From contig NZ_CP089291.1 of assembly GCF_022818495.1 (NCBI RefSeq), positions 4,481,501 to 4,545,500 of the forward strand: a stretch of 64,000 nucleotides of DNA. Direction: 5' to 3'. How positions within the stretch are numbered: the first letter of the stretch is position 1; every line of letters starts with the position of its first letter. Below the pieces are notes generated by a model that saw nothing but the letters and a program-made list of their open reading frames with translations, made no database searches and was not told where the DNA came from. This document shows, piece after piece, positions 29,773 through 54,788 of the stretch. The position numbers and the translations under genes are program-made. The stretch is from Fodinisporobacter ferrooxydans (lineage in GTDB: Bacteria > Bacillota > Bacilli > Tumebacillales > MYW30-H2).

Positions 29773-31263
29773 CTAACGAAATGCATCTAATTGATGAAAC
29801 GTATGTTTTAACAAAGAGTATTGTTCTTTATATATTTGATAGATTTCGCTATAAACTTGATGGTGTGTTTGGATAGGTTCATGACATTCGAGTGTTTGAA
29901 TCCATTGATCGGTTACTTGTTTTACAGAAGCAAATCCCCCGCTTCCAACAGCTGCCAAAACGGCTGCACCGTAGGCCGGACCTTCATTTGTATTAACTGT
30001 TGCAATCGGTTTATTAAAAATATCCGCCAATATCTGACGCCAAATTTTATTTTTGGAACCGCCACCAGTTACTCGAATCTCCTTTATTTCCACATCATTC
30101 ATCATTTGCAGTGAATCATTTAAACCGAATCCTACACCTTCTAAAATCGCCCTTGTAATATGTGCCCTTTGATGTGCCAAGGTTAAACCAACCAACTGTC
30201 CCTTTGCTTGCGGATCAGGATGTGGTGTCCGTTCTCCTACTAAGTATGGCAGGAACAAGAGACCTTCACTTCCTGCTCTTACATGATCGGCTTCTTGTAG
30301 AATTGTTTCATAGGACTCTTGGTTTGCACTGATTTCTTTCCACCACTTCAGTGATGCTGCAGCAGATAACATAACACCCATGGTATGCCATTGATCCGGT
30401 ACTGCATGGCAGAAAAAGTGCAAGGTATGTTGAAATGTTTTTAATGTATCGTCTCTGGCAACAAAAACCACGCCAGATGTTCCAAGTGCAACGGTTGCAA
30501 TACCACCTTCAACGACCCCAGAACCGACCGCTCCAGCAGCTTGATCTCCTCCGCCACCAACAACGGGTGTTCCTGCCGGAAGCCCAATTTCCTTTTGTAA
30601 ATATGATAATGTATATCCCGTCACTTCTTGGGATTCATACACATTAGGTAACCATTCCCTAGGGATATTTAGACTTTCCAATAAATGATTCGACCAATTT
30701 CTCTTTTTAACTTGCAGCAACAAAGTTCCGGAAGCATCTGAAACTTCTGTTGCAAATTCTCCAGTTAATCTGTATCGAATGTAATCCTTAGGCAACAGTA
30801 CCTTATCCACTTTTTCGTATATTTCAGGTTTGTTTTGTTTTACCCATAAAATTTTCGGTGCGCTAAACCCTGTTAATGCTCGGTTGCCGCTCTCTTCCAC
30901 GAGAGATTGAATACCAACCTTTTGCTCAATATATTCACACTCTTGTTCGGTTCGTTGGTCACACCACAAAATTGCATTGTACAGAGGTTTTCCATTCTTA
31001 TCTAAAAACACAGTTCCATGCATTTGACCGGACAAACCGATTCCCTTAATGTCACTTGCATCAACTTCAGGGTGTTGGATCAATTCTTGAATGGTTTCTT
31101 TTGTTTTTTTCCACCATATCTCGGGATCCTGTTCATACCATAAGGGTTGAGGATTTAGAAGAGGATATTCTCGAGAAGAATTTGCACATATACTACCGGT
31201 TTCATCTACTACTATACTTTTTACCGATGATGTACCTAAATCAATTCCAATAAATAAAGACAT
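29773..31263 (-). CDS. xylB: Xylulokinase
   Basis: The 496-residue enzyme phosphorylates D-xylulose to xylulose 5-phosphate. It has FIGIDLGTSSVKSIVV, the XylB sequence GIGLSGQMHGTVFLD, ILWCDQRT, VVGGGGDQAAGAVGSGV, ALGTSGVVF and the C-terminal RVTGGGSKNKIWRQI. A 217-bp gap with a weak terminator separates it from dhaL. A second xylulokinase gene lies at 46961-48460. Confidence 0.9.
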   Translation of the reverse strand: MSLFIGIDLGTSSVKSIVVDETGSICANSSREYPLLNPQPLWYEQDPEIWWKKTKETIQELIQHPEVDASDIKGIGLSGQMHGTVFLDKNGKPLYNAILWCDQRTEQECEYIEQKVGIQSLVEESGNRALTGFSAPKILWVKQNKPEIYEKVDKVLLPKDYIRYRLTGEFATEVSDASGTLLLQVKKRNWSNHLLESLNIPREWLPNVYESQEVTGYTLSYLQKEIGLPAGTPVVGGGGDQAAGAVGSGVVEGGIATVALGTSGVVFVARDDTLKTFQHTLHFFCHAVPDQWHTMGVMLSAAASLKWWKEISANQESYETILQEADHVRAGSEGLLFLPYLVGERTPHPDPQAKGQLVGLTLAHQRAHITRAILEGVGFGLNDSLQMMNDVEIKEIRVTGGGSKNKIWRQILADIFNKPIATVNTNEGPAYGAAVLAAVGSGGFASVKQVTDQWIQTLECHEPIQTHHQVYSEIYQIYKEQYSLLKHTFHQLDAFR

Positions 31264-41458: not shown

Positions 41459-41890
41459 TCAACTTTCGCAGTATAAATCAGGCAGGTAAATCTTGATATA
41501 ACTTGGTAAACCTGCAATCCATTGCTGCAATTGACTTTTTATGAATTTTATAATTTTTCTGCAGGTCATTTTTGTAACGTCATTAAAGATTTCCAACAAT
41601 TGTTGTAGGGCGATAGCCCAATCAAGTTCACTCACTTCGTCACAAAGTGCCGAAAATAACCCTCCCAACGTACGTTGGTCGGTATTCTGACGATGTTGAT
41701 GTCTGACAAACACCATGATAATGGGAATACCTGGGGCCATTTCTGTATGAATGAAGCGTAAAATCCCTTTATTTTTTCCTTCAACTGGTGTGGCTGCAAA
41801 ATAAAGCTCTTTAAGAGACATGCGGCGATTCCCGACTTGGTAACGTTGACTCGTTGATTTGACCATGCCGATGACATCAAGTCCTCTTTT
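41459..41890 (-). pseudogene. IS4-type transposase remnant with internal deletion
   Basis: The reading frame RGLDVIGMVKSTSQRYQV onward matches the middle of an IS4-type transposase of Bacilli. It then jumps near VFVRHQHRQN to DQRTLGGLFSALCDEVSEL and ends as a normal C-terminus (QQWIAGLPSYIKIYLP). The N-terminal part is missing, and the segment between the two pieces, which should hold the last catalytic acidic residue and its surroundings, is deleted in frame. The product cannot be active. It marks past insertion between lacI and the SDR gene. Confidence 0.75.
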
Positions 41891-41994
41891 TTCTTATTAT
41901 TTGACTAACGAGATTTATTCTTTGCTGTTCCTTTGTAATCGATTCTCCAACAAAGTGATAGGAAAAAATTAACTAAGAGAAAGGAAAAATATTT

Positions 41995-42892: not shown

Positions 42893-43669
42893 CTATTCTT
42901 TCGAGTTTTCAGGATATTTTACGAGTAGATTAGGGAACTTATCATAAAATTCATTTGGAACATTTTTATCCGTCAATAATATATTTGTCTCGTGTAATGT
43001 ACCAAATCTCCCAACTGACGAAGAATCAAACTTGGAGTGATCCAATAAACAATACCGATTTGTGCTTTTTTGAAACATCAGATTTTTAAGTTCTACTTCA
43101 TACAAATCAAAATCCATGAGATCACCGTTTTTCGTCAATGCCCTTGCTGAAAAGAAGAATTTTCCAGGAAACACTTGGTCCAACATAGAACTCCCCATAA
43201 GCCCTTCGATGCTGTTCGTATTTCTAAGAACTCCTCCGATTAAAATAACATTGATTGACGGACTCTCCACTAACTCTTGGGCGGCAAATAGTCCGTTTGT
43301 CATTACTGTAAGATTAAAATCGGAATTTTTAAGTAACTTCGCTAATTCTAAACACGTAGAACTTGCATCAAGCAATAAAAAATCATGGTCCTCTATATAA
43401 TCCATTGCTATTACAGCAATTTTTTGCTTTTCCTCCGTATATTGGGAGCGTCTGTTTGAAAAACTTAATTCGTTCATATCCTCAAGTATAATTGCACCGC
43501 CATGCGTTCTCCGAATTAAGTTTTTATTCTCGAGATATTTTAAATCCGAGCGTATTGTAGCTTCAGTAACATTTAATTTTTTGGATAAATCCGCTACTGA
43601 TGCACGTAAATTTTCCGAAAGCTCCTTTATGATTAATGCTCGTCTCTCATCCGAGAACAATTTATCCAT
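42893..43669 (-). CDS. DeoR-family transcriptional regulator
   Basis: The 258-residue repressor has the DeoR helix-turn-helix (RASVADLSKKLNVTEATIRSD, of which VTEATIRSDL is decisive; RRTHGGAI follows) and a sugar-phosphate-binding domain with DASSTCLELAKLL, VMTNGLFAAQEL and ILIGGVLRNTNS. The start at 43669 follows GAGGGG. AT-rich sequence with AAAACGAAAA lies upstream at 43739-43748, a possible self-operator. Transaldolase and the broken transketolase lie next upstream, the SDR downstream. It probably controls this pentose-phosphate part of the island. Confidence 0.88.
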   Translation of the reverse strand: MDKLFSDERRALIIKELSENLRASVADLSKKLNVTEATIRSDLKYLENKNLIRRTHGGAIILEDMNELSFSNRRSQYTEEKQKIAVIAMDYIEDHDFLLLDASSTCLELAKLLKNSDFNLTVMTNGLFAAQELVESPSINVILIGGVLRNTNSIEGLMGSSMLDQVFPGKFFFSARALTKNGDLMDFDLYEVELKNLMFQKSTNRYCLLDHSKFDSSSVGRFGTLHETNILLTDKNVPNEFYDKFPNLLVKYPENSKE

Positions 43670-43856
43670 AATATATCCCCTCAAAAAATAAAAATTCACC
43701 TAAAATAAAAAACGTTTTCAAATAAAAGTATACGTAAAAAAACGAAAAAAATCAATAGATTATTCCTGATTAATCCCCAAATTACAATTTCGGGACCTGC
43801 AAAATTCTGCAAGTCCCTTAAAATCCCTTCTTCGTTTTCCGATCTTCCTCGTCTTC

Positions 43857-44963
43857 TTAAGCAAACGTACGGGAGGAACGGATCGACTCAGCTTTACTTT
43901 TTAAATTCCCCATTAAATTCTCAAATGATTCTTCAAAAAGAGTTACGCCCTCATTCAGTAGTTTGTCGGTTACCTTCGAAATCGAAATCCCATTTTGCTC
44001 AAGTATTGTTAAAATTTGTTTTGCTTCACTTATTCCCTCTTCTAATGTTGAACAGAAATTTCCCTTACTTAAAACTGCTTCTAAAGTTTTTGGCGGCATC
44101 GTATTCACTGAGTCCGGACCCACGAGAGGACTGACATAGAGTAATTCGGGATAGTTCGGATTCTTGGTACTGGTAGATGCCCATAATGGACGTTGCACGA
44201 ATGCTCCACTCACTTTAAGGCGATTAAATCTTTCGCTGGTAAATTGTTCTTGGAATAAACGGTATGCCAATTTCGCGTTTGCGATTGCTGCTTTACCAAG
44301 AAATGCTGGATCGAGTTGCAACTCATCAATGGCCGGATCGACCGAACTGTCCACCCGACTAATAAAAAAGCTGGCTACTGATGCGACTTTTACCGATTCG
44401 CCTCGTGCTAATCGATCCTCAAGCCCCAACAAATAGGCTTCAATGACTTTTTCGTATTCCGATACGCTGAAAATCAATGTTACATTAACGTTTATTCCTT
44501 TACTGATTAACGTACGGATTGCAGGAATACCTTCAGGAGTAGCTGGCACTTTAATCATAATGTTAGGCCGATTGAGCGCAGAAAAGATCCTTTGCCCTTC
44601 TTTAATCGTTTCTTCAGTATTGGCTGCCAGAGTTGGAGGAACTTCGATACTGACATATCCGTCTGCTCCAAACGAATTTTGGTACACTGGAAGCAGTAAA
44701 TCCGCAACCCGCTGAATATCATCAAATACCAAACTATCATAGATATCGTTAAGTGTTTTTCCATCATTCACTGCACGCAAAATATCCTTGTCATAAGCGG
44801 TAGAACTGGTAATTGCCCGCTCGAGAATCGTTGGATTTGATGTAACTCCAGTAACTCCAAGTTCAATCAGCTTCTGCATTTCCCCTGAATCTATCAAATC
44901 ACGTTGTACATTATCATACCAAACGCTTTGTCCGAACTGATTCAGTTGTTGTATCGGATTCAT
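43857..44963 (-). CDS. tal: Transaldolase (long form)
   Basis: The 368-residue enzyme transfers dihydroxyacetone units between sugar phosphates. Its Schiff-base lysine lies in NIMIKVPATPEGIPAI. Other motifs are LGVTGVTSNPTILERAI, GYVSIEVPPTLA, VNVTLIFSVSEY and SVASFFISRVDSSVD. The length fits the longer transaldolase class of actinobacteria and some Bacilli. AGGAGG precedes the ATG. It follows the transketolase pseudogene on the same strand by 77 bp. Confidence 0.92.
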   Translation of the reverse strand: MNPIQQLNQFGQSVWYDNVQRDLIDSGEMQKLIELGVTGVTSNPTILERAITSSTAYDKDILRAVNDGKTLNDIYDSLVFDDIQRVADLLLPVYQNSFGADGYVSIEVPPTLAANTEETIKEGQRIFSALNRPNIMIKVPATPEGIPAIRTLISKGINVNVTLIFSVSEYEKVIEAYLLGLEDRLARGESVKVASVASFFISRVDSSVDPAIDELQLDPAFLGKAAIANAKLAYRLFQEQFTSERFNRLKVSGAFVQRPLWASTSTKNPNYPELLYVSPLVGPDSVNTMPPKTLEAVLSKGNFCSTLEEGISEAKQILTILEQNGISISKVTDKLLNEGVTLFEESFENLMGNLKSKAESIRSSRTFA

Positions 44964-45040
44964 CTTTATGGCCTCCTACTAATTTTTCAATATTATAGAA
45001 AAATAACTTTAGAGAACAAAACTTGATGCACACTTCCAAA

Positions 45041-46476
45041 CTATAATACCCCTAGCAAACCAGACTGTAAGACTTGTTTTGCAATCATCAAGACATTTTC
45101 AACCGTGAATCCAAATGTACGAGTAATCATATCACCGGGTGCCGAAATACCGAATTGATCAATGCCTAAAACTCTTCCTGCTCGACCAACATATTTGTAC
45201 CATGACATCGGGTGTGCCATTTCCACTGCCAGACGTTTCATTACGGAAGAAGGAAGAACACTTTCTCGATAGGACAGATCTTGTTGATCGAACAGTTCCA
45301 TACATGGCAGATTTACGACTCGGACCGCAATTCCTTCTTCCGCAAGTTGTTGGGCTGCCTTCAAAACCAATTGAACTTCCGATCCAGTTGCGAGTAAAAT
45401 CAAATCGCGTCCATCACCATTTTGGTACAGAACATAGCCTCCACGATATACATCAGCGGCATGTGCTTTTATTTCATTCAATGTTGGAACCTTCTGTCTT
45501 GTTAACACCAGAGCAACGGGTCCTTCCCGATGTTCCAAGGCATAGCGGAAGCACATTGCGGTTTCTGTCGCGTCGGCTGGACGAAAGACTTTAAATCCCG
45601 GAATAGAGCGTAACGATGGCAATTGTTCAATAGGCTCATGGGTAGGGCCATCTTCACCTACTGCGATACTATCATGCGTAAAAATATGAATCGCCGGCTG
45701 CTTCATTAAAGCCGCCAACCGTAACGCAGGTTTCAGATAATCACTGAACACAAAGAATGTTCCGGCATACGAGTTTGCGCAAAACGGCTCTTCACCATTG
45801 ATGATCGTTTTATTAGAACTCGATAAATCAGCCGAACCCCCGACTAGTGTCGGAACATACTGGGCAATCGCATTCACGATTTTTCCAAACGCATCTCGTG
45901 TCGCTATACTATCTTGAAAATCAGGTAAAACTTCATCCCATGGTACCCAAACTCGCCCTTGTAAAGCATCTTCAAACTGCTGAGCCTCATTTGGGAAAGA
46001 ATTTTTGTACTGTCTGAATAATTCATTCCACTTTTCTTCCGCTTTCTCCCCTAAAACAATACATTTTTTAAAATTTTCCTGAACATCTCCCGGAACAAAA
46101 AACTCATCATAATCCCAGCCGTATACTTGCTTGGTCAGAATTGCCTCCTCTGCGCCTAACGGTTCCCCGTGTGCATATTTTGTACCTTGTTTTTTGGGAG
46201 ATCCATAGCCAATGACCGTTTTTATTTCGATTAGTGTCGGTGAAGTAAACTGTACAATAACATCGAACCATGGCCTGCAGATAGGACAAAGCGGTCTCGA
46301 TTGAACCAATTTGGGTTTTTCGGATTAAATTGCATGAAGCGCGTCCAAAGAATATAGGCCATAGGTGCGGCTCCCATTGGCAGTCCTGGGTGACCCGACT
46401 TTGATTTTTCAATCGCATCGATCGATAAGGCTCTGATTGCTTGAACAGATACGGTATCAATTTACGAAAAACTCAC
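45041..46476 (-). pseudogene. tkt: Transketolase pseudogene (early stop plus internal deletion)
   Basis: From GTG 46476, after TAGGAG, the frame reads MSFS, then a TAA at 46462-46464 where transketolases have a lysine codon. It continues in frame as [33 protein letters not shown] and [17 protein letters not shown]. Near 46236-46245 it jumps to [19 protein letters not shown] in another frame and runs to 45041. About 150 residues are missing by comparison with remembered family members, including the GDG...N motif that binds TPP. The C-terminal half (ILGIDQFGISAPGD at the end) is intact. A functional enzyme cannot be made from this copy. Confidence 0.85.
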
Positions 46477-46625
46477 AGAATTACACTCCTATTTTCAGTA
46501 TTTTTTGCTATTTTTTTATTTATTTTATTTTTATGTGAATATTTTCGATTATTTTAATTTATTTGTCAATATATTTTTGTATATTTTTTATTTTCATTTT
46601 TGTATATTATGCATTTTTGAAAGCG
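46477..46625. promoter_or_regulatory. T-rich region upstream of the transketolase pseudogene
   Basis: Long T-rich stretches contain TTTTCATTTT at 46591-46600 and TTTTCGATTA nearby, like the candidate DeoR sites before rpiB and deoR. This is probably the regulated promoter region of the tkt-tal operon. No clear -10/-35 pair is distinguishable in the AT background. Confidence 0.4.
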
Positions 46626-46821
46626 GCGGTAGGTTAAAAAAGTAAAATGTGGTATCTTGGTAACATCAAATAGATTTTTTTGCAATTTTACAGTGTACAG
46701 GGATTAAACAATAATGAAATGGATCCTTTCAGAATGTAACAGAGTGGCCGATGATGGCCAGCAGATGAAACGGTGTATAACTTGGAGGCGGATAGGAGAA
46801 GAGGGTTTTACACAAACCCAT

Positions 46822-46925
46822 CCTCTATATCCCCAACTGCATGCAGCACTAGCCAGAGCAGATTTTTCTTCGGAGCGTAAGTAAACAATCTTCTGTATGG
46901 AAGAATTGCAGTTGGAGATATAGGG
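46822..46925. mobile_element. MITE-like element or structured region with 20-bp inverted ends
   Basis: The left end (46822-46841, beginning CCTCTATATCC) and right end (46907-46925, ending GATATAGGG) are inverted repeats matching at about 18 of 20 positions, about 65 bp apart. The 104-bp unit has no reading frame and lies in a 335-bp gap between the tkt promoter region and xylB. No obvious target duplication was seen, so a structured RNA is the alternative. Confidence 0.4.
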
Positions 46926-46960
46926 CTTGTTTTAACTCCAGGGTTTGTTTTAACCGAAAC

Positions 46961-48460
46961 TCACTTTCGAAATGCTTTTAACTGTTCATTAATCAATTTC
47001 GTTTGCTGGTAAACGGTTTGGTATATTTTATAGACCTCATGATACTTATGCACATTTTCCGGTTTCGGTTTGTACAATTTGGCGTATTTAATAAATACGC
47101 TCGCACAGGTCTCTAAAGAGTCGAACCAGCCACAGCCGTATGCAGCCAGCATCGCTGCTCCCAAAGCTGGACCTTGCTCGTTCTCCAGTTTGACTACAGT
47201 GGCATTAAAGACATCTGCCTGCATCTGCAGCCACTCTTCGTTTTTTGTGCCACCTCCGATCGAGATTACGGTATCGATTCTTTTCCCTTTACTTCTTAAG
47301 ATTTCAATCGATTCGTTCAAGGCATACGTAATCCCTTCAATGACCGCTCTTACAAAATCGGCTCTGCTTGTCGTCGCATCAATACCAATAAAACTTCCCC
47401 TAATGATCGAACAAGCATAAGGTGTTCTCTCGCCAACAAGATAGGGAGTGAATAACAATCCATTAGCCCCGATAGGAACACGCCCGAGATCTTGTAGCAA
47501 TGATTCAAAGCTCTCTTCCGAAGCAAATTGATTTTTAAACCAGCTTAGACTGTATCCCGCTGACAATACCGCTCCCATCGTGTAGTAAGCGTTTTCTTTG
47601 GCGTGATTAAAATAATGCACCTTACCTTCATAGTCTGTTTCACTGTTCGCCTCATAAGAAACGACAACTCCCGAAGTCCCAATACTGCAAAGGGTTTTGC
47701 CTTCACTCAGGATTCCCGCTCCAACAGCTCCGCAAGCATTATCAGCCCCGCCGGCAAATACTTTCGTCATCTCTGAGAGGCCGGTACCGGAAGCAAATTC
47801 ATGTGAGAGTGTCCCAACACAGGTGTGGGAATCCACAAGAGGTGGACAGAGCTCCATACTCAAATGAAACAACCGGCAAATCTCTTCACTCCATTGTTTC
47901 CGGCCAATATCAAGAAGCAAAGTAGCTGAAGCATCCGAATAATCGGTATGGATCGCTCCTACCATTCGATACCGTAAATAATCTTTAGGAAGCAAAAATA
48001 CTTTAGCTCGGGCAAACTGCTCAGGTTCATGCTCTCTAACCCATAAAAGCTGGGGTAATGTGAAGCCTTCCGCAGGCAGTTTTTTGGTAATAGACAGCAA
48101 CCGTTCTTCACCAACAATTTCACAAATTTGTGTGCATTGGAGTGATGTGCGTGTATCATTCCATAAGATAGCATCCCGAATTACGTGATACGACTCATCT
48201 AACAAAACAAGCCCATCCATTTGACCGGCAAAGCTGATTCCTTCAATATTGCGAACGTCACCTTGAAAATTCTGAACCAACTGTGATAATGCGGAGCGTG
48301 TCTGTATCACCCATTGCTCGGGGTTTTGCTCACTGTAACCCGATTTTTTTTGAATCAAAGGATACGTCTTGGAAACTTCATCCCAAACCTCACCGTGCTG
48401 ATTTATTAATAATACCTTGACAGAACTCGTTCCCAGATCAATGCCTATTACATACTTCAT
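46961..48460 (-). CDS. xylB: Xylulokinase (second copy)
   Basis: The 499-residue FGGY kinase begins YVIGIDLGTSSVKVLLI and has GISFAGQMDGLVLLD, ILWNDTRTS, FAGGADNACGAVGAGI, SIGTSGVVVSYE and ISIGGGTKNEEWLQ. It phosphorylates D-xylulose or a similar ketose to the 5-phosphate. AGAGGAGG precedes the ATG. It is the third gene after two SDRs on the same strand, an arrangement that fits pentitol to ketopentose to xylulose 5-phosphate. It differs clearly from the xylB at 29773. Confidence 0.88.
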   Translation of the reverse strand: MKYVIGIDLGTSSVKVLLINQHGEVWDEVSKTYPLIQKKSGYSEQNPEQWVIQTRSALSQLVQNFQGDVRNIEGISFAGQMDGLVLLDESYHVIRDAILWNDTRTSLQCTQICEIVGEERLLSITKKLPAEGFTLPQLLWVREHEPEQFARAKVFLLPKDYLRYRMVGAIHTDYSDASATLLLDIGRKQWSEEICRLFHLSMELCPPLVDSHTCVGTLSHEFASGTGLSEMTKVFAGGADNACGAVGAGILSEGKTLCSIGTSGVVVSYEANSETDYEGKVHYFNHAKENAYYTMGAVLSAGYSLSWFKNQFASEESFESLLQDLGRVPIGANGLLFTPYLVGERTPYACSIIRGSFIGIDATTSRADFVRAVIEGITYALNESIEILRSKGKRIDTVISIGGGTKNEEWLQMQADVFNATVVKLENEQGPALGAAMLAAYGCGWFDSLETCASVFIKYAKLYKPKPENVHKYHEVYKIYQTVYQQTKLINEQLKAFRK

Positions 48461-48501: not shown

Positions 48502-49269
48502 CTAGCCCTGTTTCATTTTCCCTTTATACGTTCTTCCACCGTCTAATACCAGTATTTGCCCATGAATATACTTCGCTTCGTCAGTACTCAAATATTCCAC
48601 CAAACTGGAAATATCAGAAGGTTTACCAAACCTGCCAATTGGAATCTCCTTCTTCAATGATTCTCTTGATTGTTCCGTAGGGTAGAGAACATCGAGCATT
48701 TGGGATTCTATCACCCGCGGCGCGATTACATTAATTGTAATATTATTGCGTCCCAATTCCGTAACAAGCGACCTCATCAAACCAAAAGCTCCACCTTTGG
48801 AGGAAGAATACTGGACACCCCCGCCAGAACCTGTAATCGCAGACCCGGATCCAATAATAATGATACTTCCCATTTTCTGTTCGATCATATAGGGAGATAT
48901 AGCTTTAATAGAATAAAAAAGCCCATGTAAATTAATTGCTATTGTTTTCTTCCATAATGACCAATCCAACTCGCTAAATTCTATTCTTTTCGTAATTCCT
49001 GCAGAATACACTAGGATTTGAATATTTCCTAATGCTTCCTTGACTTTTTCAGCCATTCTTTGCACGCTTTCCCATGAACTCACATCAACTTGAAACGTAA
49101 ATAGTTTGTCTTCAAGCTTATGTTCTGAAACGACTTGAGACATCGCTGCTTCATTGATATCAGCAATCGCGACTTTATGACCAGCTTGGACGAAATCCAA
49201 TGCGATCTCTTTCCCAATCCCGGCAGCTCCACCAATGATAAGAACCGTTTTCTGTTTCGTATTATCCAA
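48502..49269 (-). CDS. Short-chain dehydrogenase/reductase
   Basis: The 255-residue SDR has the NAD(P) loop LIIGGAAGIGKEIA, YSAGITKRI in place of NNAG, a catalytic serine in IIGSGSAITG, and VQYSSSKGGAFGLMR with an intact YxxxK. I chose the TTG at 49269, after GGAGGAG, because it overlaps the preceding SDR stop by 8 bp. The longer frame to 49320 lies within that gene. It probably oxidises a pentitol or related polyol for the xylulokinase that follows. Confidence 0.83.
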   Translation of the reverse strand: MDNTKQKTVLIIGGAAGIGKEIALDFVQAGHKVAIADINEAAMSQVVSEHKLEDKLFTFQVDVSSWESVQRMAEKVKEALGNIQILVYSAGITKRIEFSELDWSLWKKTIAINLHGLFYSIKAISPYMIEQKMGSIIIIGSGSAITGSGGGVQYSSSKGGAFGLMRSLVTELGRNNITINVIAPRVIESQMLDVLYPTEQSRESLKKEIPIGRFGKPSDISSLVEYLSTDEAKYIHGQILVLDGGRTYKGKMKQG

Positions 49270-49981
49270 TGCTCTCTCCTCCGTCCAACATAATTGGTTC
49301 ACAGCTAATGTGCTCACCATACGGAGAGCATGCTACCAAGACCATATTCGCAACAGCATTTTTAACCATCTTTTGTTTCTCTTTCCATTGGCCTCTCTCA
49401 AGCTCCAATTGAACAACTGATGGTGCAAGAGAGATGATTCGAATCCCTTTTGGCTTATATTCTCTTGATAATGCTCGAGTCATTGAATTTAATGCACTCT
49501 TCGAAGCTGCAAAGTGTGGGCCCATCTCTCCAGTTACTGCAGCAGCAGAAGTGATGTTGACAACATACCCTTTACCTGCGCGAACCATATGTGGAAACAC
49601 TTCTTTACAACATAGGAAAGGTACGTCCAAATTCATATCAAACATCGCCACCCACGCATCGGGTTCCAACTCTTTTAATGATTTGAAATCATGTTCCTCA
49701 GCATTATTAATGAGAATATCGATACTGCCGCTGTGCTGTATAATAAAATTTATGACTCTTGTAACTTCCTCAGGCTTGGTCAAATCTCCCGAAATCAAAT
49801 GTGCCTGCCCTCCGGCAGATTGAATCGTTTGGCAAAGCCTTTCCGCCGCCTCATTCCCTTCAAAATGATGCAGCCATACCTCAGCGCCCGCACGTGCAAG
49901 CGACAATCCGATCCCTTCTCCCCAAAAGTTGGTGCTTCCCGTTATAAGTGCAACTTTATCTTGTAAATCGAATGTAACCAT
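49262..49981 (-). CDS. Degenerate short-chain dehydrogenase/reductase lacking the catalytic tyrosine
   Basis: The 239-residue protein has the SDR fold sequences VALITGSTNFWGEGIGLSL, INNAEEHDF, NITSAAAVTG and a final GGESIG. It departs from the family at three points: the YxxxK tyrosine is phenylalanine (F157 in HFAASK, TTT codon), the cofactor loop has extra residues between TG and GIG, and NNAG reads NNAE. TAGGAGG precedes the ATG and the frame is intact. It may be inactive, act as a partner of the next SDR, or use another proton donor. Confidence 0.75.
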   Translation of the reverse strand: MVTFDLQDKVALITGSTNFWGEGIGLSLARAGAEVWLHHFEGNEAAERLCQTIQSAGGQAHLISGDLTKPEEVTRVINFIIQHSGSIDILINNAEEHDFKSLKELEPDAWVAMFDMNLDVPFLCCKEVFPHMVRAGKGYVVNITSAAAVTGEMGPHFAASKSALNSMTRALSREYKPKGIRIISLAPSVVQLELERGQWKEKQKMVKNAVANMVLVACSPYGEHISCEPIMLDGGESIG

Positions 49982-53415: not shown

Positions 53416-53449
53416 TCTGCTTGAAGTAAATGTATTCCAATTTTATTTT

Positions 53450-53606
53450 AGAGGATGTTCAAAAAGTAGTCAAAACTCCACGGCGGATTGCTTTGCCGAA
53501 TCCCCAAAAGGCTTACTCATGTACCAAACACGTACACTCCGTCGCCTTTTCGTGCTTCGGCTTTGCACTCCTTGTGTCTTACTTAACCACTTTTTGAACA
53601 CACACT
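53450..53606 (+). mobile_element. MITE-like repeat, copy 2
   Basis: This second 157-bp copy of the element at 51941-52097 has the same orientation and only about four differences. It lies just upstream of the histidine kinase start, so it occupies that gene's promoter region. Confidence 0.75.
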
Positions 53607-53957
53607 TTTAGACGATTTTCGAATTTAAACAAAGAGATCAAACTATTATTTTTATACAATACGTGTAGTTTCGTTTCTGCCGTATACATCCACCGAATTG
53701 GAAAGCGGTCGATCTCGCCAGGTTTCAATTTCCAAATCACTTTCATCAAAAAATCATTGGCAACTTTTTTCCCCTGATTGACATAGTATGAACAAAAGGG
53801 ATGTAATCTCAAGTGTGCAACACACTTGGCGACGGATATTGCATCCCTTGCCCGCATAAAACAGCCCTTCTATACATCCGGGATATAGTTGCGAGGCAAA
53901 ATGGGCCGGAAAAAGGATTCTGGATTTATAATAAGAACAATCATATAAGCACAAGAA
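53607..53957. other. Gap with a promoter-like site and an 8-bp inverted repeat
   Basis: TTGACA at about 53779-53784 is followed 17 bp later by a weak ATGTAA. The inverted repeat CAAGTGTG (53810-53817) and CACACTTG (53821-53828) lies just after it. A 92-codon minus-strand frame here ends inside the repeat and has no binding site, so I do not call it. Nothing else is recognised. Confidence 0.35.
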
Positions 53958-54197
53958 TCACTTTGACTCTGAAAACTCTTCCCAAGGAAGCTCGGTTTCT
54001 AAATTTGCATAGAGAAGTCGGTACATTTCCAAATATTGTTGCTCTTGTTCTGTTGGGAAATCCCCTGCGTATTCCTCAAATTTCTCAACAGCAAAACGCA
54101 ATGCCAATTGTAGAAGTGCTAATTCCTCAGATTTATCCATTTCAATTCTGGCTCGCTCTATATTTGTCTGATCATCCCGTTTAACGTACAATTTCAT
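53958..54197 (-). CDS. Hypothetical small acidic helical protein
   Basis: I do not recognise this 79-residue protein. It starts MKLYVKRDDQTNIERARI and is rich in E, L and Q with alternating helix-forming residues (ELALLQLALRFAVEKFEEY), so it is probably soluble and largely helical. AAGGGAG before the ATG at 54197 supports a real gene; the frame runs on to 54269 without such a site. It stands alone between the second repeat and a long gap. Confidence 0.6.
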   Translation of the reverse strand: MKLYVKRDDQTNIERARIEMDKSEELALLQLALRFAVEKFEEYAGDFPTEQEQQYLEMYRLLYANLETELPWEEFSESK

Positions 54198-54788
54198 TTT
54201 TATTCTCCCTTCTGCTTTTTCAAGAGGATGTTCAAATTGCAAACATCGCTGTTGCAAATCTACTAACATATGAAATTAAAGTCTTGTTTCCAAACGTTTT
54301 AATCCTAACGTTCCAAACGTTTTATGGATGTTTCAAAAACAATGAATACATACATTCGAATATATCGATTATCTAATAAATTATCTCCAACAACAAGTTG
54401 TAACAAGTTATTTAAGAAATATTCCTTTACAAAAAAACATCTTTTACAAAAAAACCATCCGATGCCTAAAATATGCTACAATCACAGTCGAACAAAATTT
54501 AGTTTGGGGAATTCGTTCGGACCATGCATTGAAAGCTTGCAATATACAATAAAACGGAATTAGGACAGCTATACCATGCTGCTTATTCAAAAATTATCCA
54601 GACTTTACAAATGGATTACAATATTTTCAACAAAACACCTGGCTTTTTTGGAAAAAGGCAGGTGTTTTGTTTCATGTGCTCGTTTCAGGGGCTGGAAAAT
54701 TTTTTTGAATAATTTCCTATAAGATTGTTGAATCTAACGTTGCAACGTATATCTGTGTGTGAATTATTTAACGAGGTGAAACCAATCT
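54198..54788. other. Intergenic region with a hairpin and short repeats
   Basis: Two direct CCAAACGTTTTA copies, at about 54290-54301 and 54313-54324, lie near the left end. A perfect 11-bp hairpin (54631-54641 with 54659-54669, arm CAAAACACCTG) resembles a terminator. The palindrome ACGTTGCAACGT (54737-54748) lies shortly before the LysM/3D gene. A 79-codon frame at 54324 looks spurious. Confidence 0.4.

Follow-up and report, generated by a model that had tools for sequence, protein, structure and literature searches.

The window, i.e. the whole stretch of 64,000 nucleotides that was analyzed, carries a pentose island in which a transketolase gene (tkt) is broken. The gene order along the minus strand is xylB (48460–46961), a spacer of some 480 bp, the remnant of tkt (46476–45041), tal (44963–43857) and a DeoR-type regulator (43699–42893). 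The features of the locus are the following.

46961–48460, minus strand: xylulokinase gene xylB, intact, upstream of tkt; TIGR01312, 602 bits (cut-off 380)
46510–46597, minus strand: three promoter-like sites 5′ of tkt, consensus matches alone
46476–45041, minus strand: broken transketolase gene tkt, with three lesions
46240–46476, minus strand: 5′ fragment of tkt, with a GTG start, TAA at codon 5 and then 74 codons of the thiamine-diphosphate (TPP)-binding domain; Pfam Transketolase_N positions 2–74, E-value = 4.9e-33
46238–46243, minus strand: junction of deletion 1, with a net loss of 484 bp and a change of frame
45041–46240, minus strand: 3′ fragment of tkt, with the end of the TPP domain, the pyrimidine domain (damaged), the C-terminal domain and a TAG stop codon at 45043–45041
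45761–45772, minus strand: joint of deletion 2, 30 codons (90 bp) gone in frame, with Tyr-Ala-Gly codons at the joint
43857–44963, minus strand: transaldolase gene tal, intact, directly downstream of tkt; TAL_FSA positions 1–284 of 285, PRK03343 462 bits (cut-off 367), tal_mycobact 327 bits (cut-off 234)

The flanking tal and xylB genes are both full length by these matches, as the original prediction had stated. The region 43600–47000 has 11 promoter-like sites as compared with 8.4 ± 3.3 in shuffled sequences, thus the count is not above expectation. A scan of the window with Rfam at gathering scores gave no matches.

The remnant starts with a GTG codon at 46476, nine bases 3′ of an AGGAG sequence. 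Both fragments match transketolase profiles, collinearly and on one strand, and the homology is thus recognizable along the length of the gene; the E-values, 4.9e-33 and 1.1e-129, show that the matches are not due to chance. The approximately 400 codons that follow the change of frame match the end of Transketolase_N and the pyrimidine and C-terminal domains. The TIGR00232 score of the 3′ fragment is 434 bits and falls below the curated cut-off of 682 for a functional transketolase. It would be a mistake to annotate the 422-codon frame at this locus as a functional transketolase.

Codon 5 is a TAA stop codon (46464–46462, minus strand), as had been predicted. A lysine had been expected at this position; this residue is found in none of 54 full-length transketolase genes, and the position is mostly occupied by Glu (21 of 28 genes of the genome family f11, which is judged to be the Alicyclobacillus family from named Alicyclobacillus genes that share its clade in the tree). 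At the joint of deletion 1, near 46240, the last base of a His codon doubles as the first base of a Pro codon. The His-to-Pro spacing is 161 codons in 38 of the 40 full-length genes that could be measured by the pattern used (14 of the 54 could not), with spacings of 160 and 162 codons in one gene each. Deletion 1 is thus 484 bp net, i.e. 161 codons and one further base lost at the joint. Pfam Transketolase_N positions 75–234 are missing. A large deletion with a frame change at 46236–46245 that removes the TPP-binding region had been proposed and is borne out; its proposed size of about 150 codons is near the measured one. Deletion 2, seen on alignment of tkt with its relatives, takes out 30 codons in frame around 45761–45772; its breakpoints, like those of deletion 1, are placed from relatives that have 60–69% identity to the remnant. 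The Pfam Transket_pyr match is broken at this point (43|77, the second part starting at position 77) and the conserved GVREHAMG segment is taken out. The description of the gene as doubly disrupted is therefore right as to disruption but not as to number, since this third lesion had been overlooked. The codon-5 stop, the 484-bp frame-changing deletion and the 90-bp deletion preclude a full product.

The GDG motif and the REH segment both lie within the deleted stretches. GDG is the TPP-binding motif and the Glu of REH the catalytic Glu of transketolases. With the TPP-binding region and the segment carrying the invariant Glu removed, the broken gene would not be expected to yield an active enzyme, judging from the known catalytic residues of transketolase.

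The surviving columns of the remnant are 60–69% identical to the 28 f11 genes, which encode the Alicyclobacillaceae-type transketolase (TIGR00232; PF00456, PF02779, PF22613). In contrast to that enzyme, the remnant has the stop at codon 5, has lost 484 bp and 90 bp, shows an incomplete TPP-binding region and is without REH. Human TKTL1 is a transketolase relative that is shortened inside the TPP domain; it is an expressed gene and its shorter form is conserved. The remnant is likewise shortened inside the TPP domain, however one of its lesions is out of frame and its loss looks recent.

The original prediction noted a TTCACC sequence at deletion 1 that could have given microhomology. This is not supported by the relatives, where the matching sites share 0–3 bases in all 28 f11 genes (0 bases in seven, 1 in seven, 2 in 12 and 3 in two); the ancestor might have had more. 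The residue that precedes the Pro in these genes is Ala, Lys, Arg or Gly and never Ser. Judging from the relatives, the 484-bp deletion may have formed with hardly any homology, or none, at its joint. For deletion 2, 27 f11 genes could be measured (L102 could not). In 14 of them the 30-codon stretch has Tyr-Ala-Gly at either end, and in five of these 14 (L031, L032, L058, L097 and L103) the DNA of the repeat is identical over 8–10 bp. Slippage or recombination between the repeated Tyr-Ala-Gly codons most likely produced this deletion, since repeats 30 codons apart would yield exactly a 90-bp in-frame loss. The first repeat site reads Tyr-His-Gly in L086 and L087, the two genes of highest identity to the remnant, and this counts against an origin from the repeat.

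Three clean internal deletions are found within 5 kb, namely those of 484 bp and 90 bp in tkt and an in-frame one of 73 codons in a transposase remnant; all three are flanked by open frames on both sides. That dispensable genes of this genome are pruned by frequent clean internal deletions and not by point decay is a generalization from a survey of this window that we regard as unlikely.

The loss of tkt is probably recent because the surviving codons show little decay. There are 116 columns invariant in the 54 full-length transketolases, of which 39 are deleted and 77 kept, and none of the 77 is changed in the remnant; the filter for the 54 genes demanded the SxHPGxP motif and length (loci such as L039 and L092 were not used), and those few columns are thus invariant partly by choice. 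The 77 surviving codons correspond to 174 nonsynonymous site-equivalents, and a simple Poisson bound (95%) puts neutral divergence since the loss at less than about 1.7% per site; this bound rests on the 77 columns and takes every change in them to be visible. The suggestion in the original prediction that the loss may be recent thus gains support as a probable one. The remnant retains 174 of the columns that are invariant in 27 f11 genes and differs at seven of these. In a leave-one-out control 26 of the 27 genes have fewer changes (at most six, in L114) and one, L094, has an equal number, which places the remnant at the high end of the range and not outside of it. The branch of the remnant in the tree is long and its letter make-up is unusual. 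Some decay or fast evolution of the remnant is possible.

The genome of F. ferrooxydans (G000) is a single contig of 4,856,687 bases. A search of it, as had been proposed, located an intact transketolase gene at G000:C1:2733383 onward, 1.8 Mb from the broken copy. This resident tkt has an open frame of 693 codons, is full length, scores 955 bits with TIGR00232 (cut-off 682) and groups in the tree with genes of the organism's own order. It was also argued beforehand that another transketolase must supply the activity, and the resident gene fits this well; as it is full length, the lost activity would be covered by it at least. The genome further contains five adjacent pairs of transketolase-like genes in which an N-half and a C-half are split. 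One of them, at G000:C1:4474996-4476788, is located some 5 kb ahead of the window and has open frames of 280 and 316 codons.

Fodinisporobacter ferrooxydans MYW30-H2 is described as close to Tumebacillus and Effusibacillus in the available part of its genome paper (PMC11123200). Matches to the remnant at E ≤ 1e-95 are present in 30 of 398 genomes of the class, i.e. its own genome and 29 genomes of f11. The relatives with a match at this threshold have open frames of at least 662 codons, and the 54 filtered frames are full length by choice. A first tree with a stricter motif filter excluded full-length genes including L113, L029, L031, L032, L135 and L138, and it was redone with a looser filter. 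The resulting tree has 46 rows and surviving columns only, nine distant rows of the 54 being left out. The remnant groups with the f11 genes. Holding f11 together without the remnant costs 17.5 log-likelihood units (p-AU 0.039); a position nested in f11, as against one sister to it, is thus only weakly settled. The trees suggest that the broken tkt is a xenolog, i.e. a foreign extra copy acquired horizontally and not the organism's main one. A literature search found no report on a transketolase pseudogene in Alicyclobacillus.

An old paralog of the organism's own, rather than a foreign gene, would be another source of the remnant. There is no genus- or family-mate of F. ferrooxydans among the genomes searched, which include one genome per species, and this leaves room for an old copy specific to the family. 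However, forcing the remnant together with the organism's own intact copy costs 125 log-likelihood units (p-AU 1.5e-5) and forcing it together with genes of its own order costs 107 (p-AU 1e-17; L023 counted within the clade of the order), and both arrangements are rejected. Furthermore the 13 order-mates have a single match each at E ≤ 1e-60, and the 12 of these that were placed in the tree are all of the resident type. An old paralog is thus very unlikely. That the breaks are errors of sequencing or assembly and the true tkt is intact is more improbable still. The usual errors of long reads are small homopolymer indels, and two clean deletions, one of 484 bp and the other of 90 bp, together with a frame-neutral stop codon are unlike these. 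Long reads can carry small errors, and the genome paper, in its available part, names PacBio sequencing and Unicycler assembly only; the coverage it states, 328.8x, speaks against error (PMC11123200). In addition, 16 other genes scanned in the island match their families with no evident break.

The 3′ frame at 45041–46309 (422 codons from a TTG) could still be expressed, with a non-catalytic role or as partner to a split N-half. That some 400 codons remain open could mean that the frame is still used, which counts against a pseudogene. Continued expression is also favored by the absence of change at the 77 invariant positions and by the presence in the genome of five split pairs, one about 5 kb outside of the window. 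However, the 3′ frame has neither the invariant REH segment nor the greater part of the TPP domain, and the stop and the frame change sever it from the gene's own start. The youth of the loss explains retention of the frame equally well, and the split pairs already own their C-halves. Continued expression with a function thus has very little likelihood, even less than a sequencing error.

The best explanation of the locus, with a probability of about 0.92, is that the tkt remnant is the pseudogene of an acquired, redundant transketolase in the pentose island that was recently inactivated, and a disrupted transketolase in this setting is what had been predicted. An Alicyclobacillaceae-type tkt that sits beside tal in a pentose/pentitol catabolic island would have been acquired horizontally, judging from the trees. 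The extra copy would have been dispensable since a full transketolase of the organism's own lineage was already present, and it has been struck by the early stop, the 484-bp frame-changing deletion and the 90-bp in-frame deletion. The broken tkt appears to be a clean, probably young case of loss of an acquired redundant metabolic gene with its neighbors intact, and it suggests that the resident transketolase is the one on which the pentose island relies. It is ordinary biology and of little general significance.

The other genes of the island differ in their affinities. Matches to tal at E ≤ 1e-80 are found in 17 of 398 genomes, which belong to f11, a second family (f48) and F. ferrooxydans itself, and in none of the 13 order-mates. 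The best matches of xylB are to several other families of the class, with two f11 genomes (G160 and G235) lower in the list, and xylB shows no f11 signal. One f11 genome, G368, has an island with rpiB, dhaK, dhaL, tal, a DeoR-type regulator and a full-length tkt (L113) within 10 kb, a gene set in common with the F. ferrooxydans island. The G368 tkt has a full open frame, whereas the gene is broken here, and is from another f11 lineage than the remnant, thus the island does not seem to have been simply taken over as one block. At two f48 loci, L135 and L138, tkt (again a full open frame) and tal are directly side by side and the tal gene is of the same type as here. No tal or xylB at E ≤ 1e-15 was found near the related tkt genes in 30 genome-contig loci, some of which are short. 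As the affinities of tkt, tal, xylB and the G368 genes differ, the pentose island looks like a mosaic.

Positions 53416–54788, about 1.4 kb, show no clear long gene (the longest listed frame is 123 codons) and no Rfam match; the flanking frames presumably encode a histidine-kinase-like and a LysM-type protein. The transposase remnant is at 41459–41893 (minus strand) and corresponds to residues 239–453 of the 453-aa Alicyclobacillus fastidiosus plasmid transposase WP_268004608.1 (~65%). It is without the whole N-terminal half, and the 73 codons lost are from its middle; it gave no Pfam match of its own, and no second copy was found in the genome.

An SDR gene at 49262–49981 (minus strand) is missing the usual PLGRxG stretch near the C-terminus, and the last 59 bases of the gene also form the start of the next listed frame. 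An internal deletion was considered for this gene; a relative with 40% identity (L155) is also without PLGRxG and the form looks natural. The island has two FGGY-type kinases on the minus strand, at 29773–31263 and 46961–48460, the second of which is the xylulokinase by NCBIfam.
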